Shown here: piece after piece, positions 3,913 through 59,545 of the stretch
How the letters are laid out: every line of letters begins with the position of its first letter
Numbering within the stretch: position 1 is the stretch's first letter
Source: a virus
DNA length: 64,000 nucleotides
IMG/VR virus record: IMGVR_UViG_3300042090_002485
Span: 123,863 to 187,862 of that record
Strand: one strand, 5' to 3'
Made by a program: the position numbers and the translations under genes
Notes under the pieces: model-generated
The model's database searches: none
Told to the model about the DNA's origin: nothing
Seen by the model: only the letters and a program-made list of their open reading frames with translations

Positions 3913-4326
3913 GTGAAGACATCATCCAAACTCAAGCCGCTCGAGCCTGTTGACCACGCGCGCTGCCAAGCCGACATCAAGTCAGCGTACAACCCCTTCA
4001 TCTTCGGCGGAGACGTCGGTGGGAAGTGGGGCCGCTGCAAGAACAAGCCGATCTGGTACGCCCGTGAGGTCGAGGTCGACGCTAATGGGCGCCGAGGCGC
4101 GATGTCACTCTGCGACGAGTGCAAGGTCGAGTGCGAGAAACGCGTGAAGCGGGCCATATCGTTCGAGCCGCTCGTCGACTGGAACGACAAGTTCCACCAG
4201 CTCTACGAGAACCCGAATTGCGTGCCGCGCGAGGAGGTCGCGCGAGTGCTGCAGGACGCTGGCGCCAACGCGGAGACGGCCGCGGCGTTCGAGCAGCTCA
4301 TCTTGGGCCACTGGCCGCGCCGGTGA
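3913..4326 (+). CDS. Hypothetical protein with zinc-ribbon-like core
   Basis: 137 aa from GTG 3913, with AAGAACAGG just upstream. It has C-x(n)-GKWGRCKNK followed by LCDECKVEC near residue 63, a possible four-Cys zinc site, then a helical C-terminal half. Overlaps the next GTG. Confidence 0.65.
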   Translation: MKTSSKLKPLEPVDHARCQADIKSAYNPFIFGGDVGGKWGRCKNKPIWYAREVEVDANGRRGAMSLCDECKVECEKRVKRAISFEPLVDWNDKFHQLYENPNCVPREEVARVLQDAGANAETAAAFEQLILGHWPRR

Positions 4327-4514
4327 CGCTGTCGTACTACGCGAAGGGGCCTCTCGTCCATGTCATGTATCGCGGCAACCAGGACCTGGTCTACCACTGG
4401 CCGCCCCATCACGAATACCGGTCCCTATGGATGGCGTCCCGTATCGAGGACCAGCCGATCACCTGCGTCGAATGCCTGGCATTTGTTTGCGCACCGCCCA
4501 CGTTGGTGCGATAA
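4323..4514 (+). CDS. VTC-module protein, 63 aa
   Basis: First clear family member in the window. LVHV gives His13 and ITCVECLA gives Cys48 and Cys51. The usual central Cys is absent and replaced by a WPPHHEYRSLW segment, so histidines may substitute. GTG start overlaps the upstream TGA. It stands alone, away from the arrays. Confidence 0.75.
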   Translation: MTLSYYAKGPLVHVMYRGNQDLVYHWPPHHEYRSLWMASRIEDQPITCVECLAFVCAPPTLVR

Positions 4515-4523
4515 ACATGGCCC

Positions 4524-4910
4524 ATGCACATCAACGAGTACCAGGTCCTCGCCGCCGTCACCGAGTTCACCCCCGACTTCGTCCGCCTAGGGCAGGGCCC
4601 CGAGCACGACATGATGGTCGCGCGCCTCCTGCACTCGACCTTGGGCATGATGACTGAGGTCGGCGAGTTCGCCGACATGCTGAAGCGGCACATCTTCTAC
4701 GGCAAGGCCCTCGACGAGGTCAACCTGCTGGAGGAAAACGGCGATCTGGCTTGGTACCAAGCACTGGCCCTGAACGCGACGAAAAAGAACCTCGAGGAGT
4801 GCCTCGAGAAGAACATCGCCAAGCTCAAGGCCCGGTTCGGCGACAAGTTCACGCAGCACGCGGCGCTCAACCGCGACCTGGCCAAGGAGCGGGCTGAACT
4901 GGAGAAGTGA
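4524..4910 (+). CDS. MazG-like nucleotide pyrophosphohydrolase
   Basis: 128 aa, an all-helical MazG-type protein. STLGMMTEVGEFADMLKRH (residues about 37-55) carries the Glu residues of the first metal helix, and EENGDLAWYQAL (about 71-82) gives the second E-x-x-D-like set. The end (KLKARFGDKFTQHAALNRD) matches the family tail. Such enzymes hydrolyse NTPs or dNTPs to monophosphates and are common in phages, where they may adjust nucleotide pools or alarmone signalling. Confidence 0.8.
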   Translation: MHINEYQVLAAVTEFTPDFVRLGQGPEHDMMVARLLHSTLGMMTEVGEFADMLKRHIFYGKALDEVNLLEENGDLAWYQALALNATKKNLEECLEKNIAKLKARFGDKFTQHAALNRDLAKERAELEK

Positions 4911-4911
4911 C

Positions 4912-5190
4912 ATGAAGATCGAGGTGGACGGCGTCGAGCTGACAATTACGCGGACCGCGTCCATGCTTCGCGTAGCGCGCGTCGTTGGAAGAGACCGCAA
5001 GGCGAAGAAGGACATCATAAACCACGTGGACGTCGTTGACGACGGCTTCTTGCTGCTCCGTGCCATGCGCCGTGTCGCCAAGTGGACGCCCGAGGGCTGT
5101 ACGTGTACGTATGGCTACGGCTGGAGCGACCACGACGCCCACTGCAAGAGCATCTACAAGGCCCAGGAGTACGTCGACTTCGACGACTAA
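4912..5190 (+). CDS. Small hypothetical protein
   Basis: 92 aa starting one base after the MazG-like gene stop. A beta-rich N-terminal half (MKIEVDGVELTITR) is followed by GCTCTYGYGWSDHDAHCK, a Cys/His cluster at residues 62-79 that may bind metal. No family recognised. Confidence 0.65.
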   Translation: MKIEVDGVELTITRTASMLRVARVVGRDRKAKKDIINHVDVVDDGFLLLRAMRRVAKWTPEGCTCTYGYGWSDHDAHCKSIYKAQEYVDFDD

Positions 5191-5199
5191 CATTGGAGG

Positions 5200-5370
5200 A
5201 TGAAGTTGCTGCGCGAGCACTGGGGAGCCATCGTCATCATCGCGGCAATCGTTCTGGGAGCAGTCGGACAATGCGGGCAAGAGCTAAAACCGTACCGAGC
5301 GACGGACGCGTGCGGCGGACCGGGCAGCCGCCCCGTGACGATTGGTGGGATGCCCGTGGCCTGCCAGTAG
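5200..5370 (+). CDS. Small membrane protein overlapping next gene
   Basis: 56 aa. MKLLREHWGA precedes one hydrophobic helix (IVIIAAIVLGAVG, residues 11-23), then a polar Cys-containing tail. GGAGG touches the ATG with almost no spacer, so the start is uncertain. The last 100 bases overlap the next gene in another frame; an overlapping lysis-type pair is conceivable but there is no lipobox. Confidence 0.4.
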   Translation: MKLLREHWGAIVIIAAIVLGAVGQCGQELKPYRATDACGGPGSRPVTIGGMPVACQ

Positions 5371-5612
5371 TCGGCGACATCGTCCACTTCCACTACGAAA
5401 ACGAGCGGCGACGCGGCAACTTCGTACGCGTTGTCGAGGTCTTGACGCCCGCCAAGATCTACAAGCCACCGTGGTTCATGGTTGTCCTGATCGAGAAGCT
5501 TTGGTGGATGGCGAGTGCCTCGCGAGCGCCGCTGGGCCAGCTTCGTCCCGTCGTGTGGACACCAGAGGGCCCGCGTTGCGTCGCATGTGAGCTGATCTAC
5601 AACAAGAGGTGA
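5271..5612 (+). CDS. Hypothetical protein, 113 aa
   Basis: ATG 5271 has GGGAG about 10 bases upstream. The protein has a basic N-terminus, then a strand-rich SH3-like stretch (VVGDIVHFHYENERRRGNFVRVVEVL) and a C-terminal CVACELIYNKR. The CVAC ending recalls the VTC module, but the typical GVVH motif is missing. Classification uncertain. Confidence 0.6.
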   Translation: MRARAKTVPSDGRVRRTGQPPRDDWWDARGLPVVGDIVHFHYENERRRGNFVRVVEVLTPAKIYKPPWFMVVLIEKLWWMASASRAPLGQLRPVVWTPEGPRCVACELIYNKR

Positions 5613-5614
5613 CC

Positions 5615-6475
5615 ATGTTCGGATTGTTCGGCTTCGGGATGTCCCCGGAGATGGAGAAGCGCCAGCGCGAGCGTGAACGCGCCGAACGCGCTGAGCGTAT
5701 GAAGGAGGCTGTGGCCTGGGACCCCAAGGTGAACTGGACGCCCCGGCTGACGATCAAGGCCGAGACGTGGCCGTCGTGGGACCTGTTCTCGCCGCCCCCG
5801 TCAACTTGCCACGACGTCAACGACGAGACCGACGAATCCAAGCTCGTGTTCTCCCCATGCGGTCGGTTCGTGTTCTACCGCAAGACCCTCAAGAAGGGAG
5901 GCAAGCTGCTTACGCTGTCCGGGTCGCGTGAAGGCAACGTGATGTTCGACGGCGACGTGTACATCCCGGCGCTGCACGAGAAGACCCGCAACGGTGAGCG
6001 CTGGCACGAGCACCCATGGATGAGCGTCACGCCGATGGAGCTGATGACACAGCGTCCAGGTGTACGCTTCGCTAAGGGCCACACCATCGTCGGCGGTCTC
6101 GGCATGGGGTGGGCACTCGTCCAGATCTTGCTCAAGAAGACGGTGACGCGGGTGACGCTCGTGGAGCGGTCGCAAGCGCTCGTCGACTGGTTGCTACCGC
6201 GCGTGAAGCAGCTGCACCTTTCGGCGTTCGACAAGCAGCTCGACATCGTCGTCGGCGATGCCTACGAAGTCATCCCGGCAATGACCGCCGATGTCGCGGT
6301 GATCGACATCTTCGACGGCTACGGCGGCAATGACTTCCTCGAGGGCGTCATGAACCGGATGCGCAACGCGCTGCCGTCAGGGCAGCGCTGGAAGACGGAG
6401 CTTGGACCGCCGTGTCCGAACATCGGACGCGTATGGTCGTGGGGGAAAGCAGAGGTCAGCGACGGCGGCTGGTGA
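5615..6475 (+). CDS. SAM-methyltransferase-like (spermidine synthase-like fold) protein
   Basis: 286 aa from ATG 5615 with AAGAGG 5 bases upstream. An Arg/Glu-rich helix (residues 11-32) precedes a Rossmann-type core: glycine loop IVGGLGMG (158-165), acidic strand end TLVERS (181-186), GDAYEVIP (214-221) and AVIDIFDGYG (228-237). This order matches class I methyltransferases of the spermidine-synthase type. Substrate unknown. Confidence 0.7.
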   Translation: MFGLFGFGMSPEMEKRQRERERAERAERMKEAVAWDPKVNWTPRLTIKAETWPSWDLFSPPPSTCHDVNDETDESKLVFSPCGRFVFYRKTLKKGGKLLTLSGSREGNVMFDGDVYIPALHEKTRNGERWHEHPWMSVTPMELMTQRPGVRFAKGHTIVGGLGMGWALVQILLKKTVTRVTLVERSQALVDWLLPRVKQLHLSAFDKQLDIVVGDAYEVIPAMTADVAVIDIFDGYGGNDFLEGVMNRMRNALPSGQRWKTELGPPCPNIGRVWSWGKAEVSDGGW

Positions 6476-6699
6476 TGCTGTTCGCTGTCGTCCGCTGGAA
6501 CAACGTCGTCCACGCTGCCATCGGCCTCAACGGTACGTGGGTTGAGGGCCGCGCGGTCGCTCACTGCGGTCAGAAGATGAAGCTGTACCGCGGCAGCAAG
6601 AACAAGGTAACGAAGCAACCCGTGACGTGCGTGCTGTGCGTCGCGAAGGAGATCGCCTGTGAACAAACGGAACCGAACCAGCAACAAGGCCCTGCGTGA
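6475..6699 (+). CDS. VTC-module protein, 74 aa
   Basis: NNVVHAAI gives His13, AHCG gives Cys31 and PVTCVLCVA gives Cys52 and Cys55. This is a textbook member with a Gln-rich tail (CEQTEPNQQQGPA) that overlaps the next gene. A GTG at 6472 is an equally possible start. Confidence 0.8.
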   Translation: MLFAVVRWNNVVHAAIGLNGTWVEGRAVAHCGQKMKLYRGSKNKVTKQPVTCVLCVAKEIACEQTEPNQQQGPA

Positions 6700-11298: not shown

Positions 11299-11581
11299 AC
11301 GCAAGAAGCGCGTCTGGCGTGTGCGTGTCGATGTCACCCGTGAGGTCGAGGTGTTCGCATCTGACGCCGAAACCGCACAGAAATACGCAGCGGCGCTTGG
11401 CATCTACAAACTCAGACGCAAGACCCGCGAAACACGCATCACTGACTCAGTGATGTGGGTCGACAGGATGAGCGTCGGACACGTTGAGGGCTGCCGCGGC
11501 AAGCACTGCAAGCACTTCAACTGCGACACGGAGACCGACGCGCCGTACTACTGCACCACGTGCGATCCGGGGGCTCAGTGA
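11291..11581 (+). CDS. Small protein with Cys/His-rich tail
   Basis: 96 aa. The N-terminal half is a short beta-alpha unit (VWRVRVDVTREVEVFASDAETAQKYA in two parts). The tail CRGKHCKHFNCDTETDAPYYCTTC (residues 68-91) has five Cys plus His, consistent with one or two zinc ions. Confidence 0.65.
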   Translation: MTRRKKRVWRVRVDVTREVEVFASDAETAQKYAAALGIYKLRRKTRETRITDSVMWVDRMSVGHVEGCRGKHCKHFNCDTETDAPYYCTTCDPGAQ

Positions 11582-11844
11582 CGCTCGCGGAGGTCCTCCA
11601 GCGCATCAAGACGCTGCCTCGAGTCGGTGACAGCGCGATCGTTCTGGACAAGCACGGCGTCGCGCACGTTCTCGTCGTCACCGAGGTGAAGAACCGGGGT
11701 GCTCGCGCCAACGCGCTCAGTGCAGTGCTCGCCGGCGAGGTAACGTTCATGTGCGGATGCGAGGCGATGACCTACGAGTCGAAGCAGATCGAGCATCTCG
11801 AGATCGCGCCCATCATCACGTGCGTGGTGTGCAGGGCGCTGTGA
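11578..11844 (+). CDS. VTC-module protein, 88 aa
   Basis: First gene of array 1. KHGVAH gives His30, FMCGC gives Cys59 and Cys61, and IITCVVCRAL gives Cys82 and Cys85 at the extreme C-terminus. The longer N-terminus (LAEVLQRIKTL) looks helical. GTG overlaps the upstream stop. Confidence 0.8.
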   Translation: MTLAEVLQRIKTLPRVGDSAIVLDKHGVAHVLVVTEVKNRGARANALSAVLAGEVTFMCGCEAMTYESKQIEHLEIAPIITCVVCRAL

Positions 11845-12029
11845 ACAAGCCGAACATCGCCGATGGACATGGTGTCGTGCACCACAACGATGGCACGGAC
11901 CACTTCGGGTGCGGCGCGTGCTGTACACGCATACCGACGACGCGAGCGACCGCCGTTCGCACCACTCGCGAACCTGTCACATGCGTCAAGTGCCTCGCGT
12001 GGGCATTCGACCGAAAGTTGGAATCATGA
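11841..12029 (+). CDS. VTC-module protein, 62 aa
   Basis: GHGVVHH gives His14, FGCGACC gives Cys24 with extra Cys27 and Cys28, and PVTCVKCLA gives Cys48 and Cys51. The additional central cysteines are unusual. GTG start in a 4-base overlap. Confidence 0.8.
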   Translation: MNKPNIADGHGVVHHNDGTDHFGCGACCTRIPTTRATAVRTTREPVTCVKCLAWAFDRKLES

Positions 12030-12466
12030 CCGAGTTGAAACGAGACCCTGTCAAGCTGGCCCAGATCTCCAAGGAACTGGACCGGCTCTCAGCGATGGTC
12101 GACCGCGTGACCAAGAACGACATCACCAACGCGGCCATGGTCATCCTCGACTGCGCCAACGACATTCAAGACATGTTGCGCGGCAAGCTGCGCGGCTGCA
12201 AGTGCCAGCAGATCGACCGCGACGATGGTGGCAGCTACCTCATCTACAACAACGACTGCGTTCACCATGGCTTCCTCGCACGCGAACGTGAGCGCGTCGA
12301 GAACTGGTTCAAGGACGAGCAGGCCAGGCTCGAGGACTCCCGGCTGTGGAAACTCGTCGAAGCGGCGATGGCTAGGCCAGATCTGGACGCACAGCAGGTG
12401 TGGAATTTTGCAAAGGCGGTTCTCGCCAATGCGCCCGCGGCGCCTGAAAAACGATCCAAGCCATGA
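12026..12466 (+). CDS. Helical hypothetical protein inside array 1
   Basis: 146 aa without a VTC module. It is helical throughout (LAQISKELDRLSAMVDRVTK; ENWFKDEQARLEDSRLWKLV) with a middle GCKCQQIDRDDGG loop carrying two Cys. Overlaps upstream by ATGA. Unknown role. Confidence 0.7.
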   Translation: MTELKRDPVKLAQISKELDRLSAMVDRVTKNDITNAAMVILDCANDIQDMLRGKLRGCKCQQIDRDDGGSYLIYNNDCVHHGFLARERERVENWFKDEQARLEDSRLWKLVEAAMARPDLDAQQVWNFAKAVLANAPAAPEKRSKP

Positions 12467-12622
12467 GTTCTGTGAGCTGGAGTTCGGCGTGCATCCGCAA
12501 GCCAGCGGCGCGGTAAAGCGCCGCCATGCAGCAGGCGGTTCTTGGCGTCAAGTCCAGGTACGCTGCATCCATGACGGTGCGCGCAGTGCGAACGCCGAGC
12601 CAGCAGTCGAAAGTGAGGTTTG
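12467..12622. other. Intergenic gap in array 1
   Basis: Gap of 156 bases in an otherwise gapless array. A plus-strand frame starting at GTG 12489 (44 codons) and minus-strand frames cross it, but none has a convincing start or composition. It contains the hairpin at 12505-12524. It may hold remains of a lost gene or a regulatory site. Confidence 0.3.
12505..12524. other. Perfect 7-bp hairpin
   Basis: GCGGCGC, loop GGTAAA, GCGCCGC. No T-run follows, so it is not a standard intrinsic terminator. It could be an RNA-processing or attenuating structure, or chance in GC-rich DNA. Confidence 0.3.
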
Positions 12623-12874
12623 ATGGGTTTACACGATAAACACAGAGCGCAGGTGCCACGTCGCGCAGGCGCGCTCGTCGACCCATCGGGCGTTGTCCAT
12701 GACCGAATCCACGTCGATTCCGCCAGCACGCCAGAATTTCACGTCACGCGATGCGAAGACAGCGGACGAGGATTCATCGAAGCCGAGTGGTCAAACGAGG
12801 ACCTTCGCCCCGCACCACGCTGGACCGCGACGACGTGTGTAGCGTGCTTGGCCGCGAGGAGGCGCGATGCCTAG
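12623..12874 (+). CDS. VTC-module protein, 83 aa
   Basis: DPSGVVHDRI gives His26, TRCED gives Cys44 and TTCVACLA gives Cys72 and Cys75. ATG 12623 is preferred over TTG 12620, with a GAGG upstream. Basic N-terminus and RRRDA tail. Confidence 0.75.
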   Translation: MGLHDKHRAQVPRRAGALVDPSGVVHDRIHVDSASTPEFHVTRCEDSGRGFIEAEWSNEDLRPAPRWTATTCVACLAARRRDA

Positions 12875-13058
12875 AGAAAAGGCGTGCAATTTTACAGGGC
12901 CTGACGTCTTGATTCACGCAGCGTGGCCTTACAACGGCACGAACACAACGCTCTGCGAGTACATGAACTCCGACTACCGGTTCTCTTCAGAGAGCCTGCG
13001 TGCAACCAGCACCCCGGTCAACTGCGTGCGGTGCATCGCGGCGGAAGTTGATGTCTAG
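12867..13058 (+). CDS. VTC-module protein, 63 aa
   Basis: DVLIHAAW gives His17, TLCEY gives Cys30 and PVNCVRCIA gives Cys53 and Cys56, with Asn replacing the usual Thr. It overlaps the previous gene by 8 bases. Confidence 0.8.
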   Translation: MPREKACNFTGPDVLIHAAWPYNGTNTTLCEYMNSDYRFSSESLRATSTPVNCVRCIAAEVDV

Positions 13059-13260
13059 GCGTTACCGTCATCGCGACGGCATCGTTCACCTCGCAGCCGA
13101 CCTCGGCACCAAAACACACATCACGGTGTGCGAACGCGTCTACGACAAGGATGTCTTCATCAGCGAGGACCTGGCCGAAGTCGACGCGATTGTGACGTGC
13201 GCGCGGTGCCTCGGTGCGCCGCAACACATGCACGTCTTGCACGGGCACGGGCCAGCATGA
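13051..13260 (+). CDS. VTC-module protein, 69 aa
   Basis: RDGIVHLA gives His13, TVCER gives Cys27 and IVTCARCLG gives Cys50 and Cys53. The tail is His-rich (QHMHVLHGHGPA), which may add metal affinity. Confidence 0.8.
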   Translation: MSRRYRHRDGIVHLAADLGTKTHITVCERVYDKDVFISEDLAEVDAIVTCARCLGAPQHMHVLHGHGPA

Positions 13261-13469
13261 AGTGGCGCTTCTGGCGCGGGTCCAATGGCGTCACGCACGA
13301 AACCTTCGGCATAGCCGGCCGCCGATCTATGACGCTGTGTGAGAACGTCGAGATGCGGATGTTGTACGACGCCGACACGCTCAAGCGTGGCAAGAAGCCC
13401 GTGACGTGCGTGATCTGCGTCGCTGAGGGCATCCGACGAAAGGCAAGGCGCGCCCATGAGCTGGCGTGA
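13257..13469 (+). CDS. VTC-module protein, 70 aa
   Basis: SNGVTHETF gives His14, TLCEN gives Cys28 and PVTCVICVA gives Cys51 and Cys54, followed by a basic helix (EGIRRKARRAHELA). ATGA overlap. Confidence 0.8.
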   Translation: MKWRFWRGSNGVTHETFGIAGRRSMTLCENVEMRMLYDADTLKRGKKPVTCVICVAEGIRRKARRAHELA

Positions 13470-13662
13470 CCCGACGGGCGTCGCCCACGAGACGGGCGGA
13501 AGCCACGGGGCCGCTTCGCTGATGCTATGCGAAGCGTCGAACGTCGCAACGATGTGGCCTTCAAACGCCCTGAAGGAACACGAGGGACCTACGACGTGCG
13601 TACGGTGTCTCGCGGAGCTGGCGCGGCTGCAGTCGCAGCATCCACGCTACGGTCGCCCCTGA
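13456..13662 (+). CDS. VTC-module protein, 68 aa
   Basis: DPTGVAHET gives His11, LMLCEA gives Cys25 and TTCVRCLA gives Cys48 and Cys51. Its spacing is close to the member at 13257, so these two are probably a recent duplicate pair. Confidence 0.8.
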   Translation: MSWRDPTGVAHETGGSHGAASLMLCEASNVATMWPSNALKEHEGPTTCVRCLAELARLQSQHPRYGRP

Positions 13663-13801
13663 GCACCAACGCGCCGATCAGCTCCACAAACCACTGCCCT
13701 GCGTCGCTGTTGCGCTTTGCCGCGAGCGACAGCCCGACCATCAGCGCCAGCGCCCGAGGGCACTGGTCGCGGGAGAACATGGAGTACTCGCGGCGGCACA
13801 T
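13589..13801 (-). CDS. Possible minus-strand small protein
   Basis: 70 aa filling the gap after 13662 on the opposite strand: MCRREYSMFSRD, then ALALMVGLSLAAKR and WFVELIGALVLRG, which read like helices of a real protein. AGG lies about 10 bases before the ATG. It overlaps the end of the plus-strand member at 13456. A plus-strand frame also crosses the gap but has no standard start codon. Confidence 0.35.
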   Translation of the reverse strand: MCRREYSMFSRDQCPRALALMVGLSLAAKRNSDAGQWFVELIGALVLRGDRSVDAATAAAPAPRDTVRTS

Positions 13802-13839
13802 GGTTTACCTGATAAACGGCGCACGGAGGTTACGCGATT

Positions 13840-14064
13840 ATGCTGCATGAGATGGGGCACCGCGTCAACGACAAAGAGGTGGTCGCGCACTGTTCGCTCG
13901 ACGACCTGGCGCACCGGTTCACCCAAATTGTCGAGGTCTCAATATGGCGTTCCTGGTGCGGGGCTCACACCGTGTTGGCCTGGGGATACCTGCCGTTTAC
14001 CCGCCTCGACGAGCCGGCGACAGCGACGTGTGTGCGGTGTCAGGCACGCGGCGGACCGCCGTGA
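13840..14064 (+). CDS. VTC-module protein, 74 aa
   Basis: Divergent member. DLAHRF gives His25 in place of GVVH, SWCGAH gives Cys40 and ATCVRCQA gives Cys64 and Cys67. A histidine-rich N-terminus (MLHEMGHRV, VVAHCSL) precedes it. Confidence 0.7.
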   Translation: MLHEMGHRVNDKEVVAHCSLDDLAHRFTQIVEVSIWRSWCGAHTVLAWGYLPFTRLDEPATATCVRCQARGGPP

Positions 14065-14270
14065 ACGTCGTCTTCAACTACCTCATCCACGAGGTGTCCC
14101 GGACCGAAACGCATTCTCGGTTCGGTCTGACGTTCTGCGGTTACGCATTCACGCTCGAGTTCTCAACCGGACGCACGTTCCTGCATGTGTTCAGCGCTGA
14201 CGTGACACGCGCCCCGGTCAACTGCGCTGCCTGCATCGGTCTTGCTGACGAAAGGGACCCCACCACATGA
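14061..14270 (+). CDS. VTC-module protein, 69 aa
   Basis: NYLIHEV gives His10, TFCGY gives Cys26 and PVNCAACIG gives Cys55 and Cys58. GTG start in a 4-base overlap. Confidence 0.8.
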   Translation: MNVVFNYLIHEVSRTETHSRFGLTFCGYAFTLEFSTGRTFLHVFSADVTRAPVNCAACIGLADERDPTT

Positions 14271-14815
14271 TCTTCAAGGCGACCCGTGGCCAGCTCTGGC
14301 ACGTAGTCCACGAGACTCGCACCGCCAACTTCAAAGACGTGACGTACGTGCTGTGCCGCTCAGAGTACCTCGGCGCGGGCATGCGCAAGCGAGGGTCGGT
14401 CACATCAACGTCCGCTGCGTGCTCCGTCTGTCTCAAGATCGATAACCCGATGACGTTGTCGACGGCAGCTCGCGCGGCCCTCGAAGAGTCCGCGACCGTC
14501 AGGCCAGATGGCCTAGGCCTGCGCAACAGCCGCGGCTACCGCGAGCTGCAGACCGCTGACCTCGTGGACGGGGACGAGGAACTGACCGCTCGTGGCCGTG
14601 TACTCGCACAGGACTTCACGGAGGGCCCGTCGCCCATGCCGGATGAACACGGTGTGGTGCACAAGCGAGACCCGTTCCAGTACAAGGCTCGGTGCGACGG
14701 CACGCCTCTCCAACCGTTCCGCGGTGTAGTGACGCTGGACACCTATGTCAAGCTCCGGCAGGTCTACGCTGGGACTGTCGTGACGTGCGTGGCGTGCCTG
14801 TCCCTCAACCCATAG
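14267..14815 (+). CDS. Double VTC-module protein, 182 aa
   Basis: Module 1 (residues 10-58) has WHVVHETR with His15, VLCRS with Cys30 and AACSVCLK with Cys52 and Cys55. A helical linker (about 60-120, LSTAARAALEESA) follows. Module 2 has EHGVVHKR with His132, ARCDG with Cys143 and VVTCVACLS with Cys174 and Cys177. It looks like a fusion of two members; the first has drifted further from consensus. Confidence 0.8.
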   Translation: MIFKATRGQLWHVVHETRTANFKDVTYVLCRSEYLGAGMRKRGSVTSTSAACSVCLKIDNPMTLSTAARAALEESATVRPDGLGLRNSRGYRELQTADLVDGDEELTARGRVLAQDFTEGPSPMPDEHGVVHKRDPFQYKARCDGTPLQPFRGVVTLDTYVKLRQVYAGTVVTCVACLSLNP

Positions 14816-14859
14816 GAGAACTTCCATGGCCAACAAATCGCTTTCAGGAGAGGCCCGAC

Positions 14860-15270
14860 ATGTCGAAGTTCATCGTCCAGCACGTGGACACGCAGGATCG
14901 CTACGCCTACTTCGAGGTCGACGACTCTGTCGCGTTCCTTGTGCAGCGTGTGCTCGACGGCGTTATCAAGCCCAAGCACGTGCTTGAAGCGCGTGTCTGG
15001 GAGGTGCTCCTGTGCGTGACACCGAGCCAGCAAGCCGTCGAGCAGCTCGTCGCACAGGAGCGTCGCATCGCGCTGGCCCCGCGGTCTCCCACAACGATCG
15101 CACGAGACTACAAGAAGAAGCGAATTTCTGACACAGAACTCGAGCAACTTCGCGGAGCGTTAATCGCACGAGCGACGACCGACGACGAACGCGAGAAATA
15201 CGCGGCACCGTGGCCGCACAACACGGCCGACCCCGAGCCCAAGGACGAAGATCCAGGAGTGTCGATATGA
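14860..15270 (+). CDS. Hypothetical protein, 136 aa
   Basis: ATG 14860 has CAGGAG upstream. The N-terminal half is alpha/beta (FIVQHVDTQDRYAYFEVDD). A helical region follows (PSQQAVEQLVAQERRIALA), then an acidic end. No VTC motif, no family recognised. Confidence 0.65.
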   Translation: MSKFIVQHVDTQDRYAYFEVDDSVAFLVQRVLDGVIKPKHVLEARVWEVLLCVTPSQQAVEQLVAQERRIALAPRSPTTIARDYKKKRISDTELEQLRGALIARATTDDEREKYAAPWPHNTADPEPKDEDPGVSI

Positions 15271-46053: not shown

Positions 46054-46066
46054 TACCAACCAGACC

Positions 46067-46312: not shown

Positions 46313-46333
46313 ATAAAATACCCCAAGCTTACT

Positions 46334-48451: not shown

Positions 48452-48459
48452 AGGTGCCT

Positions 48460-48714
48460 ATGATCACTGTTAGACCGACCATCATCAGCGACCACGCCAT
48501 CGAGCGCGCGATGACCCGTCACATGGGCGTCCCGTCGCTGCACGTCGGGCCGATCGTCGAACGCTACGCCGCGAAGGTGCGCCGCAAGCTCGAGGCCCTG
48601 CTCCTCAGCGCCGAGCACGTTGGGCCTGACGGCCACTGGCAGATCTGGCGCACGCAGACGGGGCATCTGCTGACCGTTGACGTTGATGGCGTGGTGCGGA
48701 CGATCTTGCCGTGA
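48460..48714 (+). CDS. Hypothetical protein, 84 aa (DUF4258-like?)
   Basis: ATG with GAGG upstream. ISDHAIERAMTRHMG at the N-terminus and HLLTVDVDGVVRTILP at the end resemble small single-domain proteins of the DUF4258/toxin-like type, but the match is weak. No VTC module. Confidence 0.55.
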   Translation: MITVRPTIISDHAIERAMTRHMGVPSLHVGPIVERYAAKVRRKLEALLLSAEHVGPDGHWQIWRTQTGHLLTVDVDGVVRTILP

Positions 48715-48968
48715 GCGAGCACGAGCTGCCGCCGTATCTGGTCGACAATGTGCTTGGTCCTGATGGCATCGTGCACAGCACCTACGCGCACGGCGCGTTC
48801 GGTGACAAGCTCGGCATCGACATCTATGTCGTGTGCACGGCGCGCAAGCCGCATGGATTGCCTGTGGTCGAGGGGCCGGCGACGTGTGTCATGTGCTTCG
48901 CTGACTGGCCGAAGACGCAGCGCTGGGTGCGTTATGCGATCATCAACTCTCGTGGCACAGACCCGTGA
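48711..48968 (+). CDS. VTC-module protein, 85 aa
   Basis: PDGIVHST gives His22, VVCTA gives Cys42 and PATCVMCFA gives Cys59 and Cys62, with Phe in the Leu position. A 22-residue tail follows. Confidence 0.8.
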   Translation: MSEHELPPYLVDNVLGPDGIVHSTYAHGAFGDKLGIDIYVVCTARKPHGLPVVEGPATCVMCFADWPKTQRWVRYAIINSRGTDP

Positions 48969-49211
48969 GAGGCATTCGCCTCATCGTCATGGTCCACGAG
49001 GTCGTGCTGTCGTACTCTGCCCCCCCATTACACCAAGGTTTCGGCTCAGCCGCGCTACGTCGTCAGGACGCGGTGCGGGCGTAGCTACAGCTTTTCGATG
49101 GCCATGTATCACGAGAAGCACATCAATAACGATGCTGTCATCACGTGCGTGCGTTGTCTCGCTGGTGTCGACGCCGAGGGTCGTGCGCTGCCGATGGCGT
49201 TTGAGGGCTAG
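48965..49211 (+). pseudogene. VTC-module gene split by a C7 homopolymer
   Basis: GTG 48965 reads LIVMVHEVV (His10) and SYSAPP, then stops at 49084. Removing one C from the seven-C run at 49020-49026 restores one frame through TRCGRS (Cys) and AVITCVRCLAG to TAG 49211, about 81 residues. It may be a phase-variable gene, a true mutation or a sequencing error. Confidence 0.75.
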
Positions 49212-53874: not shown

Positions 53875-54129
53875 ATGCGCACATACAAGGACGACCGCGA
53901 CATCATTCACTGGGTTTGGCAGGTCGACATGACCGACGTTTGGCAGGTCGACATGATCGACGCGGTGTTATCCAAGCCGGTGCGCCGGTGGGCGCTGGCC
54001 TGCACCCGAGACGGTTCGCGTGTCCTGACGCTCGCGACCGACACTCACAACATCGACAAGCGCCACCACCGCACGGTCACGTGCGTGCTGTGCTTGGCGC
54101 TTCCACGGTCTCAACACCCGCTCGGATGA
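53875..54129 (+). CDS. VTC-module protein with internal 8-residue duplication, 84 aa
   Basis: First member of array 4. DDRDIIHWV gives His12, LACTR gives Cys43 and TVTCVLCLA gives Cys70 and Cys73. Just after the His motif the unit VWQVDMTD is repeated (VWQVDMID). Confidence 0.8.
   Translation: MRTYKDDRDIIHWVWQVDMTDVWQVDMIDAVLSKPVRRWALACTRDGSRVLTLATDTHNIDKRHHRTVTCVLCLALPRSQHPLG
53914..53961 (+). repeat. 24-bp tandem duplication
   Basis: Copies 53914-53937 and 53938-53961 differ at one base (GACCGAC versus GATCGAC). In frame, inside a VTC-module gene. Confidence 0.85.
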
Positions 54130-54317
54130 CTATGGCCTACCTCGTGCGCTGCCCTAGCTGTCGCTGTCCCAAGCGCGTCGACGCTGGCGAGGTCGATCCG
54201 CGCGTCGGCTGCCCGCGAACGGCGTGTCCGAGGTGCGGCGCGCCGTACGTGACCTTGCCGCCGTTGCCGGGCGCGCTGCCGCGCCTGGGCGAGGCCCACG
54301 AAGATTGGGGGTACTGA
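54126..54317 (+). CDS. Zinc-ribbon protein, 63 aa
   Basis: VRCPSCRCPKRVDAGEVDPR then CPRTACPRCGAP give a two-knuckle zinc ribbon, with CPSC near residue 9 and CPRC near 38. ATG 54126 or 54132. Unlike VTC modules it has no His motif. Confidence 0.7.
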   Translation: MTMAYLVRCPSCRCPKRVDAGEVDPRVGCPRTACPRCGAPYVTLPPLPGALPRLGEAHEDWGY

Positions 54318-54577
54318 TGAGAGACCCGCTTGCTGCCGAGGCCTGGCGCGAAGAAACCCTCGACGACGTCTGCTTCGTGTTCGAGGACCTGCGCGCGCAC
54401 CGCGTGACGCGGTTCACGCGTTACAGCGGCCCATGGATGTTCTTGCAGACGCCGTGTGGTTACGCATCGCAGACGTACGACAACATCACGGGCCTTGCCA
54501 AATCATTCGCGCTGCGCCCAGGCATCGTCACGTGTGTCGAGTGTCTCGCGATGGAGGTGCATGATGTTCAAGACTGA
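54317..54577 (+). CDS. VTC-module protein, 86 aa
   Basis: DLRAHRV gives His28, TPCGY gives Cys47 and IVTCVECLA gives Cys73 and Cys76. TGATG start. Confidence 0.8.
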   Translation: MRDPLAAEAWREETLDDVCFVFEDLRAHRVTRFTRYSGPWMFLQTPCGYASQTYDNITGLAKSFALRPGIVTCVECLAMEVHDVQD

Positions 54578-54857
54578 CCCACGCGACTTCGGTCCCGGCT
54601 ACACGCACTACACGTTCAACAGCCCTAAGGTCGAACGCATACAAGACAGCGCTGGCGTTGTGCACCACGTTCACGCATACACAGCTAACACGTATCCGTG
54701 GGCATCCGAGACCTACTGCATCCAGCTCTGGGGCGACCTCGAGCCCGTGTTCATCCGCGACCCGGACGCGCGGGTGACGTGCGTCGAGTGCATCGCCGCG
54801 GCCGTGGCCTTGGATGCGATGTGGACGCTGAATGTCAAATGGAAGGTGTCGTTTTGA
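54564..54857 (+). CDS. VTC-module protein, 97 aa
   Basis: SAGVVHHVH gives His34, TYCIQ gives Cys52 and RVTCVECIA gives Cys73 and Cys76, then a 22-residue tail. ATGGAGG upstream favours ATG 54564 over 54561. Confidence 0.8.
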   Translation: MFKTDPRDFGPGYTHYTFNSPKVERIQDSAGVVHHVHAYTANTYPWASETYCIQLWGDLEPVFIRDPDARVTCVECIAAAVALDAMWTLNVKWKVSF

Positions 54858-55087
54858 CGGCGGTCACCGTGAGCGGTTGGGTTTCGCGGGGCGAGGTGCA
54901 GTTCAAGAACGTGCCGGGCATAACGCACGCCAGTTACGTTGATGGGTTCGCGGGTGACGCGATTCGTGATCGCGAGCGCTTCGTCCCGTGCGCGAACGGC
55001 TGGTATGCGGCACGTTGGTGGAAGGACGCGTCCGCGCCGGTGACATGCGTGTGGTGCCTGGCGTGGCAGGTCGCTATTGGGTGTTGA
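54854..55087 (+). CDS. VTC-module protein, 77 aa
   Basis: VPGITHAS gives His25, VPCANGW gives Cys46 and PVTCVWCLA gives Cys65 and Cys68. TTG start in a TTGA overlap; GTG 54869 is possible. Confidence 0.75.
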   Translation: MTAVTVSGWVSRGEVQFKNVPGITHASYVDGFAGDAIRDRERFVPCANGWYAARWWKDASAPVTCVWCLAWQVAIGC

Positions 55088-55279
55088 TCGACGTCTACGC
55101 CGTGCAGCGCTGGGAATACAGCATGACGGCGAAGGCGCTCTCTTTGGTGGATGACCTCACCCATCGCGCGCTCGAGACCGTTTTTCGTGCGGACGCGAGG
55201 CGGACGACGATGCGTTTGTTGAAGACGACTATTGACCGCCCACTTGACTCCGGGAGGACGTGCATGGCACACCTTGCAC

Positions 55280-55576
55280 ATGGCGAAGAAGAGGAAGAAC
55301 GGGCACACCGCGAAGTCGACCAACGGGACGCGTCGCTCCCCCTACCCGTACGACGCGTTCGTGAAGAACTGGACCAAGGCCGAATCGGTCAAGGAGGTCG
55401 CGACGATGACGGGCCTCTCCAAGAGCAACATCGCTGCGACGGTGAACAAGCTCCGCAAGGCCGGCGTCAAGCTCAAGGAGATGCCGAAGAGCTACGCGCG
55501 TCTGATCGACGTCACGTCGTTGAACAAGCTGATCAAGGAGTCGACGACGAAGCCGGCGCCCAAGGCGCAGTCCTAG
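55280..55576 (+). CDS. Helix-turn-helix protein, 98 aa
   Basis: Lys/Arg-rich start, then AFVKNWTKAESVKEVATMTG and LSKSNIAATVNKLRKAGVKL, a clear HTH with a recognition helix. It may be expressed from ATG 55280 or coupled to the GGGAGG at 55252. The following VTC module is in the -1 frame. Confidence 0.7.
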   Translation: MAKKRKNGHTAKSTNGTRRSPYPYDAFVKNWTKAESVKEVATMTGLSKSNIAATVNKLRKAGVKLKEMPKSYARLIDVTSLNKLIKESTTKPAPKAQS

Positions 55577-55746
55577 ACCAAGACCTCGTTCGCGACGAGT
55601 ACGGCGTCGTTCACGTCGAGGACGGGTTCTGGCGCGTGTTGATGTGCGACATCAACTGCCCGACCGGTGAGATGGCGATCTTGCCGTCGTCGAAGATTCC
55701 GACGTGTGTTGCTTGCATCGGAGGCCGTTATGTCCGCTACCGGTGA
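55570..55746 (+). pseudogene. VTC module without its own start codon
   Basis: DEYGVVHVE, LMCDI and PTCVACIGG form a complete module, but no ATG, GTG or TTG lies nearby in frame. The frame is open far upstream, through the HTH gene, with unlikely composition. A -1 shift at the end of the HTH gene would create an HTH-VTC fusion. Start is approximate. Confidence 0.5.
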
Positions 55747-56248
55747 GCCCAAGCTGCGCGCGTTCATCGTCACCGCGGCCGACGAACCACCCGAAGAAGG
55801 CGCTGCGCTGGTCTACGCGCTGTCGCCACAGGAGGCACGCCGGCTCGGTTGTCATGAGGTCGGCATCGGCGGCGTCGCCTACATCGACTCGCGTGCGCGA
55901 CGCGCCAAGGAGCACGACGCGCGTGCGGCGCTGGCCAAGGAGGCGTGCGTCGAGCACGACGCCGAGTACCTGCGCAAGGCCGGCTGGGGCAACGAAGACG
56001 AGTTGCGCTGCGGCTCGTGTGGGCTGTGCGCGATGGGCCTCGAGAAGTACGCCGTGTGCCGGATGTCGGGGCAGTGCAAGGAGTGCGGCTGCGACTTCGA
56101 GCGCAAGTGCGGCGCTACGGGCGTCGATGCTGAGGGCCACTGCAAGCGCTGTGGGCTGACGCTCGAGCCCGACACCGAGTGCCCGCTTGGCTTCCTCACA
56201 GACGTCGACCCGAAGTGCGAGCACGACGACGGGTTCAGTTGTGAGTGA
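55730..56248 (+). CDS. Cys-rich multi-zinc protein, 172 aa
   Basis: GGAGG precedes ATG 55730. The N-terminal half is alpha/beta (LRAFIVTAADEPPEEG). The C-terminal half has many C-x2-C pairs (CGSCGLC, CKECGCDFERKC, CKRCG), enough for two or three zinc ions. Function unknown. Confidence 0.7.
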   Translation: MSATGEPKLRAFIVTAADEPPEEGAALVYALSPQEARRLGCHEVGIGGVAYIDSRARRAKEHDARAALAKEACVEHDAEYLRKAGWGNEDELRCGSCGLCAMGLEKYAVCRMSGQCKECGCDFERKCGATGVDAEGHCKRCGLTLEPDTECPLGFLTDVDPKCEHDDGFSCE

Positions 56249-56474
56249 CGGGCGCGGGTACCGGCGCGCGCTCAATGACCTCGCGATCTCGCGCGAGCTA
56301 CGCGCGTTCGTCGTCGACGATGCTTGTGTCGTGCACGGTGTCGTGATGGACGGACACTGGTCGCTCAAGGCGTGTACGCGCGAGGCGATCGCGCTCAACG
56401 AGCGCATGATGGGCCTGCCACGCAACCTGACCATCACCTGCGTGGCGTGTCGTGCTTGGTTGGACGGACCGTGA
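56241..56474 (+). CDS. VTC-module protein, 77 aa
   Basis: DACVVHGV gives His32, KACTR gives Cys45 and TITCVACRA gives Cys67 and Cys70. GTG start. Cys29 replaces Gly in the His motif. Confidence 0.8.
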   Translation: MSDGRGYRRALNDLAISRELRAFVVDDACVVHGVVMDGHWSLKACTREAIALNERMMGLPRNLTITCVACRAWLDGP

Positions 56475-56710
56475 CGAAGCCGCGGTTCTTCCCGGCACCG
56501 AGAGGCCGCATTCCACTGCTCACCGGGCGTGTCGTTGACCCTGTTGGGGTCGTTCACGCGAGTGTGGGAGCGGACGTCGCGTACACCTGGGTTAAGAGCA
56601 TCATCAGATGCACGGGCCAGCCTGCGGTGCTGGCGGGGTTCTACGTCGAGCGCATCCGTGCGGTGACGTGCGTGAGGTGCTTGGCGCTCGACGCCGGAGG
56701 TTCAACGTGA
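56471..56710 (+). CDS. VTC-module protein, 79 aa
   Basis: PVGVVHAS gives His29, IRCTG gives Cys47 and AVTCVRCLA gives Cys67 and Cys70. Basic N-terminus. Confidence 0.8.
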   Translation: MTKPRFFPAPRGRIPLLTGRVVDPVGVVHASVGADVAYTWVKSIIRCTGQPAVLAGFYVERIRAVTCVRCLALDAGGST

Positions 56711-57012
56711 AGCAACGTACGACGGTTCCATGGCAACAGAAGCGCGTCTCGTCGCAGCTCATGACCTTGCTCGACGCAACTGCCGAAGAACTGCGAAAGC
56801 TACTGCCTCCGACCAGTGGCACCGTACGTGACCGGCACGGCGTCGTTCACCAGGTCATCGGCGACATGACCTGCTGCGACCTCGAGTGGTGCCGGGTCAC
56901 ACGGAGTGGCCTGCCGCAAACTCGCACGGGCTGGTCTGCGACGGGCCCCGAGGCCATCCGGCCCGTGACCTGCGCGGCGTGTCTTGCCGACTTCGCGTCG
57001 CGAGGAGATTAG
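56707..57012 (+). CDS. VTC-module protein, 101 aa
   Basis: A helical N-terminal 35 residues precede RHGVVHQV (His48), MTCCDLEWC (Cys56, Cys57, Cys62) and PVTCAACLA (Cys89, Cys92). More central cysteines than usual. Confidence 0.8.
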   Translation: MKQRTTVPWQQKRVSSQLMTLLDATAEELRKLLPPTSGTVRDRHGVVHQVIGDMTCCDLEWCRVTRSGLPQTRTGWSATGPEAIRPVTCAACLADFASRGD

Positions 57013-57016
57013 GAGC

Positions 57017-57286
57017 GTGGGATGGACCGCCACACAATTCACCGACAGCTTTCGCCGGATCGCCGCCCAGACGCCGCGTGGCTTCGTCTGGCGCGACGAA
57101 CACGAGGTCACGCACGCGCTCGTGTCGTGGAACACCAAGTCCGAGCACAGTCGCTGGGTGTTGCTCTGCACGTTCGACTACTTAGCGGTTACGCGCCGCT
57201 ATTTGCCCGCGCACGCGAGCATGCGCGGCTCCGTAGTTACGTGTGCGGCGTGCCTTGGCTCTCCGTACTCCCCGATGGTCCTATGA
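57017..57286 (+). CDS. VTC-module protein, 89 aa
   Basis: EHEVTHAL gives His33, LLCTF gives Cys51 and VVTCAACLG gives Cys76 and Cys79. GTG 57017 with GAGGAG 8 bases upstream. Confidence 0.75.
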   Translation: MGWTATQFTDSFRRIAAQTPRGFVWRDEHEVTHALVSWNTKSEHSRWVLLCTFDYLAVTRRYLPAHASMRGSVVTCAACLGSPYSPMVL

Positions 57287-57684
57287 AGACCACAACCACC
57301 AACAACTTGCTGGCCGAGATGCGGCGGCTCGGCGTTCCGACCACGCAGCCGCCGCGTGACGCGCGCTGGGTGTTCTGGGCGCGGCGTGACCAGCTCGCGC
57401 ACCGCGTGCTCGCGGTGGCGGGTACCCAGTGGCTCACCCGACAAGGTCGCCAGGTCCCGCACTTCGCCGTGACCGAGTGCGGGCGCTACGCCGTGCTGGC
57501 GGAATCGGCGCTCGGCGGGGCCTACCTGGCCGACGACGCGTTGGTAACGTGCGCGCCGTGCGCGTCCGGGCTGTGCCGAAACGGCTTGCTTGTGCGTGTG
57601 GAAGACAAGCAACTGCTGTTCGGCACGTTGTACGGTAAGCCCCCTCTATACGGAACGCTGTTCCCTAGAAAGAAGGTCCCATGA
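57283..57684 (+). CDS. VTC-module protein with long C-terminal tail, 133 aa
   Basis: DQLAHRV gives His40, TECGR gives Cys66 and LVTCAPCAS gives Cys90 and Cys93. A 40-residue tail follows with a near-repeat (LFGTLYGKPPLYGTLF). Confidence 0.75.
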   Translation: MKTTTTNNLLAEMRRLGVPTTQPPRDARWVFWARRDQLAHRVLAVAGTQWLTRQGRQVPHFAVTECGRYAVLAESALGGAYLADDALVTCAPCASGLCRNGLLVRVEDKQLLFGTLYGKPPLYGTLFPRKKVP

Positions 57685-57977
57685 CGTTCCAGATCCTGAA
57701 CACTGAGCACAAGAAGAAGACCGACGTTCCGGACGGCGTGTTCTCGCGGGTCGACCGCAAGACCGCCACGATGGGTATCAAGCAGTACCACTGGTTCACC
57801 AAAACTGGTGATGGCGTCATCCATCGCATTTGCTGCTCGAGCCATGGAGGCGTGCAGGCGATGATCCTGTTGTGCGACGAGCTGGCGTTCATCGACGGCA
57901 AGCAGGTGTCGCAGTCGGAGGTCGGCAAGGGACCGGTCGTGACCTGCGCGACTTGCGTAGGCACTAACGCGCCGTGA
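57681..57977 (+). CDS. VTC-module protein, 98 aa
   Basis: GDGVIHRI gives His48, LLCDE gives Cys65 and VVTCATCVG gives Cys89 and Cys92. A basic 40-residue N-terminal extension is present. Confidence 0.8.
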   Translation: MTFQILNTEHKKKTDVPDGVFSRVDRKTATMGIKQYHWFTKTGDGVIHRICCSSHGGVQAMILLCDELAFIDGKQVSQSEVGKGPVVTCATCVGTNAP

Positions 57978-58537
57978 TCTGGTCGCTGTGGACGCTCGTT
58001 TTTGCTGCTGCGGTTGCTGTCGGTTGGGCCACGGCAGCGCTCATCAGTCACATCAACGAGGTTCGCGCGTCCCTGCGCAGGGATAATGCCGTCCGCGCGA
58101 CGCGTCAGTTCGAGTTGTGCGTTGAACGGTTGGACAGTCTTCGCCTGTACCATCAGCAGCGTTTGCCAGGCGGACCGAGTGCATGGCCTGCTCAACGTCC
58201 CGAAGAGAACGTATGGGACTACTACCGAACGCTGGCGCTTTTGTTTTTCCCAGATGTGGCCCTGCCCCTCTGGGCTCACTTCGAGTACACGCGAACGGTG
58301 GTCAAGAAGGAGAAGCGCATGGTGCAGCTCACGGTTCGGACGGTGCACTGGTACGCCCAGGTTGGCCATATCATGCACCGGGTCGGTAGGCTCAAACACG
58401 GCGACACCGAATCCCACGTCTTGTTGTGCGCGCCGGTGGTGTCCGTCTTGAGACAGCTTGTGGTCGAGGCTGAGGACTACATGCCAGGCCAACCGATCGT
58501 GACCTGCGTGTTGTGCCGAGTGAGCCCAGCGCCATGA
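57974..58537 (+). CDS. Membrane-anchored VTC-module protein, 187 aa
   Basis: LWTLVFAAAVAVGWATAALI (residues 5-24) is an N-terminal membrane helix, followed by about 100 residues of charged helices. The module is at the end: HIMHRV with His135, LLCAP with Cys152 and PIVTCVLCR with Cys178 and Cys181. Only member seen with a clear membrane anchor; the module would face the cytoplasm if the N-terminus is outside. Confidence 0.8.
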   Translation: MIWSLWTLVFAAAVAVGWATAALISHINEVRASLRRDNAVRATRQFELCVERLDSLRLYHQQRLPGGPSAWPAQRPEENVWDYYRTLALLFFPDVALPLWAHFEYTRTVVKKEKRMVQLTVRTVHWYAQVGHIMHRVGRLKHGDTESHVLLCAPVVSVLRQLVVEAEDYMPGQPIVTCVLCRVSPAP

Positions 58538-58779
58538 GGGAGCCATCCGGGATCCTGACCGTGCTGCCTTGCGAGACCCGGTGGCGAGACCCGTTCGGCG
58601 TGCGCCACGGTTTCTTCAAGTGCGTCGATCACCAAGTCGACGGCCCATCGGTGGCTTGGTACGAGACCTGGTGCGGCTACGATTTCAACGGCGGCGACCT
58701 GAATTCGCGCACCACATCACACGCCGCAGTTACTTGCGCGCGCTGCCTCGCTGTCGGCGAACCGCGAGACGTTTCGTGA
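58534..58779 (+). CDS. VTC-module protein, 81 aa
   Basis: PFGVRHGF gives His25, TWCGY gives Cys47 and AVTCARCLA gives Cys68 and Cys71. ATGA overlap. Confidence 0.8.
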   Translation: MREPSGILTVLPCETRWRDPFGVRHGFFKCVDHQVDGPSVAWYETWCGYDFNGGDLNSRTTSHAAVTCARCLAVGEPRDVS

Positions 58780-58791
58780 TAGGAAAGTGCT

Positions 58792-58962
58792 GTGAAGCCG
58801 TGGCCTACCGACCTGGTACAGATCAAGGTGCGACGCCTACCGCTGCTCAAGCGACGCCACCGCAAGCTCCAACGGCAGCAGGATGCGACGGTGTTCTTGG
58901 GCGACGACACGGCTGGCATTGCCGGCGAGGCGCTGGACGAGATCGGGTCACTGTTCGACTGA
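58792..58962 (+). CDS. Small charged protein, 56 aa
   Basis: GTG with AGGAAAG upstream. A strongly basic first half (VRRLPLLKRRHRKLQRQQ) and an acidic second half. Not tied by overlap to its neighbours. Could bind nucleic acid. Confidence 0.5.
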   Translation: MKPWPTDLVQIKVRRLPLLKRRHRKLQRQQDATVFLGDDTAGIAGEALDEIGSLFD

Positions 58963-58983
58963 CCGCTCGTCCGCTGTTGTGGG

Positions 58984-59214
58984 GTGAGGTTGGCGCCCCG
59001 TAACGAGGACCCGCAGTGGGTCGACGCGCACGGCGTCATCCACTATGTCGGTACGCACGTTCCGAACGGCGAAGGCCGAACTATCTATACGGAGTGCTAC
59101 GAAGTGATTTCCCACACCAAGGAGATGGTTGGCTTCTACGACGGCAACATCTGCGGCATCACGTCGTGCGTCCTGTGCATGGCCACGACGAAGTTCGGGA
59201 CGCATGCCCCCTGA
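58984..59214 (+). CDS. VTC-module protein, 76 aa
   Basis: AHGVIHYV gives His20, TECYE gives Cys38 and ITSCVLCMA gives Cys62 and Cys65, with an inserted Ser and Met. Cys57 precedes the pair. GTG start. Confidence 0.75.
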   Translation: MRLAPRNEDPQWVDAHGVIHYVGTHVPNGEGRTIYTECYEVISHTKEMVGFYDGNICGITSCVLCMATTKFGTHAP

Positions 59215-59545
59215 CGAGCCGGTCGAGGAGTGGACGCCACGTTGGCGCGACGCGCACGGCGTCGTGCATGTCATGGGCTCGCACATGTCCATGATGGCGT
59301 TTACTGAATGCGGTGTGCGAGTCGCGCAACGCTCGCGACTGGACTTGGCCTGGACAGACCTCTACGAGGCCATCCGCGACGCGCCGACCTGCGCGCAGTG
59401 CATCCATGAAGAGGCGATGCTCCACTCGCTTCGAGGGTTTGCGTTACACGTTGAGCCCGGTATTGCCATCGTCAACACGAAGGCGCTCGCGAAGCTCGAG
59501 TTTACCAATCCGTGCGGTGAGATCTGGCTCGACGACAAGCCTTAG
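59204..59545 (+). CDS. VTC module with C-terminal extension, 113 aa
   Basis: AHGVVHVM gives His22, TECGV gives Cys36 and PTCAQCIH gives Cys63 and Cys66. A 47-residue tail follows (LHSLRGFALHVEPGIAIVNT). Last member of array 4. Confidence 0.75.
   Translation: MPPDEPVEEWTPRWRDAHGVVHVMGSHMSMMAFTECGVRVAQRSRLDLAWTDLYEAIRDAPTCAQCIHEEAMLHSLRGFALHVEPGIAIVNTKALAKLEFTNPCGEIWLDDKP

Follow-up and report, generated by a model that had tools for sequence, protein, structure and literature searches.

Arrays of a small, highly diverged His-Cys-Cys-Cys protein family in the genome of an uncultured phage

Why would a phage carry some 80 versions of one small protein that have four residues in common and little else? 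The question is raised by the last 64 kb (positions 123863-187862) of the 187,862-bp IMG/VR record IMGVR_UViG_3300042090_002485, an uncultured phage referred to here as G000; this whole stretch of 64,000 nucleotides is the window that we analysed, and coordinates are window positions on the plus strand unless stated otherwise. It holds 77 frames of a family marked by one histidine and three cysteines (H-C-C-C), and we know of no phage in which a single small domain has ca. 80 paralogs. They are most economically read as a bank of small binders stabilised by metal, each with a maintained role of its own that is most likely directed at host or defence proteins, a reading that we adopt tentatively and at somewhat less than an even chance. 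The rest of the record encodes DNA polymerase, primase, helicase, ribonucleotide reductase and other phage genes. The nearest cultured DNA polymerases are only ca. 23-27% identical to that of G000; IMG/VR contains relatives with polymerases 63-75% identical to it, and one further record (G007) is the same phage.

A single family with four invariant residues

The initial annotation had proposed, between 4323 and 59545, a large expansion of one family with about 77 loci, and both the coordinates and the number are borne out. A profile hidden Markov model (HMM), seeded with a strict regular expression (40 frames in the window, all on the plus strand) and then iterated, recovered 77 plus-strand frames at E<0.01, and five further copies elsewhere in G000 (genome positions 86.3-86.8 kb and 117.4-118.2 kb), i.e., one model recovers the whole set and the family does not split. 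On the minus strand, at the same threshold, the first model found no frame and the iterated model a single one, an antisense shadow of member 27513-27725, while none of 2,021 reversed or shuffled control sequences was matched. Because the model was trained on the same sequences, proof of the family rests on these controls and not on E-values; together with the strand bias they rule out a chance or antisense artefact. After start assignment the median length is 76 amino acids (aa), and 67 of the 77 members fall within the 55-100 residues previously given as typical. Instead of four arrays we count five clusters, at 3533-6699 (3 genes), 11578-17293 (13), 21856-28982 (23), 42004-49211 (23) and 53875-59545 (15), in which 29 genes begin inside a 4-nucleotide (nt) overlap (NTGA) with the preceding member.

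The consensus consists of D-x-x-G-[VLI]-[VT]-H, a C and V-T-C-x-x-C-[LI]-A, the usual spacing being 10-22 residues between the first two and 17-31 between the last two, and the order His...Cys...CxxC is almost universal among the members. In a 54-member alignment the only invariant columns are the His and the three Cys, with a mean column identity of 17%; the four ligands thus stand, as first described, between loops that are otherwise unalignable. Degenerate members are few: 47625-47852 (75 aa, HMM E 1e-6) lacks the G-x-x-H anchor, 4323-4514 (63 aa, E 1e-9) lacks the central Cys, and 3533-3904 (123 aa, E 4e-11) is atypical, with an extra Cys. Conservation of the 3' motif at the DNA level, as a repeat or regulatory element, is mostly ruled out, as its synonymous sites vary like the rest of the genes (the exceptions are an ACG bias and a GTG bias); the words repeated within the arrays are the coding motif itself.

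Two AlphaFold2 (AF2) models, made from different members and alignments, reached a mean predicted local distance difference test (pLDDT) score of 80.6 (25075-25266) and 81.7 (13456-13662), and both present short strands, with the His on strand 2 and the CxxC at the start of a helix. The ligand order and these models probably fit one small metal knuckle. Of the earlier proposal that the motifs form one zinc site on a stable scaffold, a single family with one probable metal site gains support from the invariant ligand order, the single HMM, the pLDDT of ca. 81 and the CxxC opening a helix behind the His strands, whereas the metal geometry is still a prediction.

Is this a known family? The 54 members were scanned against Pfam, PHROGs, NCBIfam, PADLOC and PDB sequences, and no model covered several of them; library matches were isolated, weak and confined to single members, the best (E 2.4e-4) being to Zn_ribbon_9. 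The family profile found no solved relative among PDB sequences, and a structural search of BFVD gave no significant match. Short C...TCxxC proteins had been said to occur singly in many phages and actinobacteria, a statement that tblastn did not confirm for phages, as three member queries found nothing significant in 50,697 phage records; the family profile did not match any of six cultured phages either, a set without a positive control. Two signature patterns run over 2.9 million viral contigs returned the G000 clade and short chance matches only, such scans being blind to members carrying other signatures, and degenerate scans across the alignment yielded nothing usable, the family having too few conserved columns. 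We found no description of such a family in the literature. As judged from these sequence searches, it is an otherwise undescribed family specific to one phage lineage.

Divergence and maintenance of the copies

No pair of paralogs in the window exceeds 45% identity, i.e., there are no recent duplicates, and the best paralogs tend to lie near each other on the genome (12 of 51 within two ranks, vs 4.9% expected), a combination that fits old tandem duplication. Between phages, orthologs among G002, G005 and G011 are 32-84% identical with a median dN/dS (ratio of nonsynonymous to synonymous substitution rates) of 0.27, an approximate value as dS is near saturation; they thus appear to be under purifying selection and the copies individually maintained, each with a stable role of its own. 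Near-identical records hardly differ, with no difference in 32 kb between G000 and G007 and one in ca. 40 kb between G002 and G003, although each pair may be the same population sampled twice. Given this and the purifying selection on orthologs, the family is not a hypervariable bank. The diversification of loops claimed by the initial annotation therefore holds between paralogs, whereas orthologs remain recognisable and near-identical records are free of hypervariation. A diversity-generating retroelement target was rejected on the same lack of hypervariation between close records, no search for a reverse transcriptase having been made.

One locus of G002 (70300-70800, or L044 11200-11700) contains a 124-bp exact duplication on either side of an 81-bp insert, which is an out-of-frame copy of the 3' part of another module gene; either two members recombined here recently or the assembly is at fault.

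Uncultured related phages have arrays of the family as well, at lower copy number. Clade-wide profiles count ca. 83 frames in G000, 45 in G010, 43 in G002, 39 in G005, 29 in G011, 19 in G006 and 10 in G001, the low counts being lower bounds as several of the relatives' records are fragments. In the polymerase tree G006 and G010 fall outside a crown group made up of G000 with G001, plus G002, G005 and G011. Reciprocal best matches (E<1e-3) link 16-19 modules of G000 to each of the phages G002, G005 and G011. The strongest come from the arrays at 11.5-15 kb and 54-59.5 kb, while those at 22-29 kb and 42-49 kb are for the most part peculiar to G000; it therefore seems that a shared core of modules is accompanied by lineage-specific banks. 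Copy number varies greatly among the relatives, as for accessory rather than structural genes.

What the bank may do

The reading as a bank of binders, which we tentatively prefer, would work as follows. A core of 50-70 aa would consist of a beta-hairpin with the His, a third strand that has the central Cys at its end, and the CxxC opening a short helix, and would probably close around one zinc ion; this knuckle would hold two variable loops, from H to C and from C to CxxC. The co-directional, overlapping arrays would have grown by tandem duplication followed by long divergence, and their overlapping genes may be translationally coupled. Each protein would bind a different partner via its loops, presumably mainly host or defence proteins, and the arrays would act as a host-takeover and counter-defence toolkit, both the takeover role and the timing of expression being presumed here. 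Compared with the long proteins of the phage, the loops in the window hold 2.5 times as much Trp (p 2e-8) and 1.6 times as much Tyr, and they are poor in Lys, Gln and Ala; such a surplus of Trp and Tyr, with little Lys and Gln, is seen in protein-binding surfaces. Over all relatives, the Trp excess also extends outside the strand before the central Cys (2.6% vs 1.2%, p 3e-11). Several points weigh on the other side: the Trp enrichment may be partly structural, the 54 members matched no anti-defence, toxin or takeover family in the libraries scanned, the near-saturated dS blurs the selection estimate, and the occurrence of the module on two HNH endonucleases suggests, for these at least, a link with nucleic acid.

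A nucleic-acid-binding role for the modules is an unlikely reading, with the following in its favour. The two endonuclease genes, 41581-42144 (phrog_1872, E 1.5e-9; module HMM E 8e-5) and 42141-42725 (phrog_1872, E 3e-5; identified by motif and outside the 77), stand in tandem at the head of the 42-49 kb array and bear a module and a module-like tail, respectively, at the C-terminus, the end at which a DNA-binding domain is often found in HNH-type enzymes. Three phages have the conserved pair, which adjoins modules in G002 and G005 as well, and in G006 a module cluster is preceded by an HNH gene. Furthermore, Foldseek placed 5v6x and 5ud5 at the top of the PDB matches of the first AF2 model, over 62 columns; both represent PylSn, the domain by which pyrrolysyl-tRNA synthetase (PylRS) binds tRNA. 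In 51 archaeal copies of PylSn, W16, G21, H24, C42, G43, C69 and C72 are near invariant; H24, C42 and the CxxC cysteines, the zinc ligands of PylSn, in keeping with their invariance, follow the same G-x-x-H...C...CxxC order as the modules, with spacings (18 and 27) inside the module range and in register with W-x-D-x-x-G-x-x-H...C(G)...TCxxC. In hhalign, PylSn scored against alignments A3 and A4 above all 200 column shuffles and above 197 of 200 shuffles that preserved the ligands. Against this, the weak Foldseek match has an E of 1.5 and a probability of 0.25, the domain was absent from the matches of the second model, alignment A1, built from the window alone, had no significant profile match to PylSn, the PylSn model TIGR03912 had no match in the G000 genome and was absent from the NCBIfam matches at E<0.1, and the family profile found nothing in four archaeal genomes holding PylSn. 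The modules are also about neutral (net charge 0.2 per 100 aa) whereas PylSn carries +10 per 100 aa, and most nucleic-acid binders are not charge-neutral. We thus regard the resemblance, based on predicted models and profiles, as a weak, partly reproduced lead and not as membership.

The CxxC itself suggests another alternative, less probable than nucleic-acid binding: that the modules are two-faced adaptors, whose variable loops would take different clients while a constant CxxC face docks a single shared partner (a protease, polymerase or ribosome) of phage or host. Directly behind the first Cys of the CxxC stands a residue that is lineage-specific across nearly all paralogs, being V or A in 79 of 83 modules of G000, I in 7 of 10 of G001, L, F, M or I in 104 of 111 of G002, G005 and G011, and M in 55 of 58 of G006 and G010, usually with D preceding the Cys. 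In orthologs it follows the phage and not the orthologous group: none of 13 reciprocal-best G000-G002 pairs (E<1e-5, with comparable CxxC) retains it. Synonymous codons at the signature positions are mostly like the rest of the gene and mostly not homogenised, which makes recent gene conversion unlikely. The V at this site is nevertheless encoded by GTG in 43 of 63 cases (p 4e-7), an excess that could have arisen by parallel changes of the first base in an ancestral ATG, or could reflect some effect at the DNA level. The lineage-wide residue could stem from a common partner or from a common packing constraint, descent within lineage-specific expansions would give the same pattern, and no candidate partner gene was identified. 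In its fullest form, which strikes us as rather doubtful, the proposal is of an adaptor repertoire in which one metal-knuckle scaffold, in ca. 80 loop versions under individual purifying selection, would keep a constant face co-evolving lineage-wide with a single common partner, thereby steering one machine towards dozens of host clients, be they proteins or tRNAs. A lineage-wide change of one residue beside the metal site would be a testable sign of such a common partner.

Very improbable, finally, is a mobile or selfish expansion in which HNH endonucleases at array heads drive module duplication and recombination and leave many copies of little function, as the tandem HNH-module genes (41581-42725), their counterparts in G002, G005 and G006 and the duplication in G002 around a copy of another module gene's end might suggest, since orthologs are under purifying selection, the ligands are intact in nearly all copies, damaged copies are few and the window has no recent duplicates.

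Should the bank of binders be real, it would amount to a library of mini-binders made by nature on a single scaffold, and a comparison of loops and orthologs across phages could reveal host targets worth one gene each.

Member loci, gene neighbourhood and known systems

In what follows, brackets give the length in aa and the HMM E-value of each member. The first cluster holds, besides the two divergent members already mentioned, 6475-6699 (74, 4e-15), with orthologs in G001, G002 and G011. In the second, members with a 4-nt overlap with the previous gene are 11841-12029 (62, 2e-14), 13257-13469 (70, 1e-13), 14061-14270 (69, 1e-10) and 15607-15825 (72, 2e-13). Orthologs are recognised there for 11578-11844 (88, 9e-10; G001, G002, G005 and G011), 12623-12874 (83, 2e-12; G001 and G005) and the modelled 13456-13662 (68, 2e-13; G002, G005 and G011), and the cluster further comprises 12867-13058 (63, 9e-13), 13051-13260 (69, 1e-13), 13840-14064 (74, 4e-9), 15377-15610 (77, 6e-14) and 17054-17293 (79, 1e-14). 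Its open reading frame 14267-14815 (E 1e-11) has two modules and spans 182 aa from an ATG at 14267, or 59 aa if the start is at 14636, and the same architecture occurs in an ortholog of G005.

The third cluster has a dense run of 4-nt overlaps, at 23574-23810 (78, 6e-11), 23807-24163 (118, 1e-8; N-terminal extension), 24160-24735 (191, 4e-6; long N-terminal extension), the minimal member 24732-24902 (56, 3e-14) and 24899-25078 (59, 5e-13), and others at 25263-25472 (69, 1e-13), 26114-26302 (62, 3e-13), 26937-27125 (62, 4e-10) and 27946-28152 (68, 4e-14). Its upstream part includes 21856-22053 (65, 1e-13), 22057-22482 (141, 2e-12; N-terminal extension), 22457-22657 (66, 1e-10), 22635-22844 (69, 6e-7) and 23269-23577 (102, 4e-12). 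Downstream follow the modelled 25075-25266 (63, 6e-14), 25941-26117 (58, 1e-9), 26707-26940 (77, 1e-11), 27109-27315 (68, 1e-12), 27302-27520 (72, 6e-10), 27513-27725 (70, 1e-13), 27725-27949 (74, 2e-13), 28142-28324 (60, 8e-10) and 28800-28982 (60, 1e-8).

Behind the HNH genes, the fourth cluster continues with 42722-43003 (93, 4e-9), 43239-43487 (82, 6e-13), 43689-43928 (79, 2e-8), 43910-44137 (75, 2e-14), 44576-44827 (83, 6e-17), 44837-45079 (80, 9e-10), 46067-46312 (81, 2e-9), 47169-47381 (70, 8e-12), 47839-48138 (99, 2e-14; long first loop), 48260-48451 (63, 1e-5) and 48750-48968 (72, 4e-11), and with 48969-49211 (E 2e-10), a frame of ca. 80 aa without an assignable start. Overlaps of 4 nt are seen here at 43000-43239 (79, 3e-14), 43484-43711 (75, 1e-14), 44134-44358 (74, 7e-12), 44355-44576 (73, 2e-14), 45076-45333 (85, 8e-12), 45330-45593 (87, 5e-13), 45590-45823 (77, 2e-12), 45820-46053 (77, 4e-8) and 47378-47632 (84, 5e-12).

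Orthologs are frequent in the fifth cluster, being found in G002, G005 and G011 for 55264-55746 (160 as called, the true start being uncertain; 9e-14), 57283-57684 (133, 2e-8; 4-nt overlap) and 58534-58779 (81, 2e-12; 4-nt overlap), and in G002 and G011 for 58319-58537 (72, 1e-9) and 59204-59545 (113, 2e-12; C-terminal extension). The same 4-nt overlap is present at 54854-55087 (77, 1e-14), 56471-56710 (79, 5e-12), 56707-57012 (101, 2e-10) and 57681-57977 (98, 5e-10), and the cluster is completed by 53875-54129 (84, 1e-11), 54317-54577 (86, 2e-11), 54564-54857 (97, 2e-13), 56241-56474 (77, 1e-9), 57017-57286 (89, 4e-14) and 58984-59214 (76, 7e-11).

The arrays lie on either side of a minus-strand block with a homing endonuclease and a repetitive tape-measure-like protein; the latter (29318-31843, minus strand, 841 aa) has short AETLPTxTDAVAR-like repeats and matches a tail tape measure family. 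Between two module genes, 15822-17078 encodes an M20-family peptidase (Pfam E 1.8e-17), an unusual phage cargo. The gene pair at 17485-21023 (693 and 135 aa) matches phrog_1735 and phrog_2018, of unknown function, and the larger protein has relatives of ca. 42-46% identity in hundreds of cultured phages. A gene at 60800-61576 weakly matches a mix of RNA ligase families and head maturation protease families, and 5609-6475 shows a weak spermidine synthase domain match (E 6e-4) that misses the cut-off. The window contained no Rfam element and no tRNA, and sigma-70 promoters in the arrays were not in excess over shuffles.

How, then, does this family compare with known systems? The closest enzyme family is phrog_1872, as two window genes match these HNH endonucleases and differ from them in the added C-terminal module. 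With PylSn (PDB 5UD5, 5V6X) the modules would share a small, compact one-zinc domain whose invariant H, C, C and C come in one order, with W and G equally far ahead of the His and the CxxC at the end; unlike them, PylSn binds tRNA and is strongly basic, including a basic stretch ahead of the CxxC, sequence HMMs do not link the two, and the second AF2 model is unmatched. Targets of diversity-generating retroelements likewise combine a fixed scaffold with diversified loops, but the modules lack hypervariation in near-identical records and their orthologs are under purifying selection. The small accessory (host-takeover and anti-defence) gene arrays of large phages consist of the same kind of short, overlapping, co-directional genes of unknown function that vary among relatives; however, such arrays usually mix unrelated families, whereas here ca. 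80 genes belong to one.

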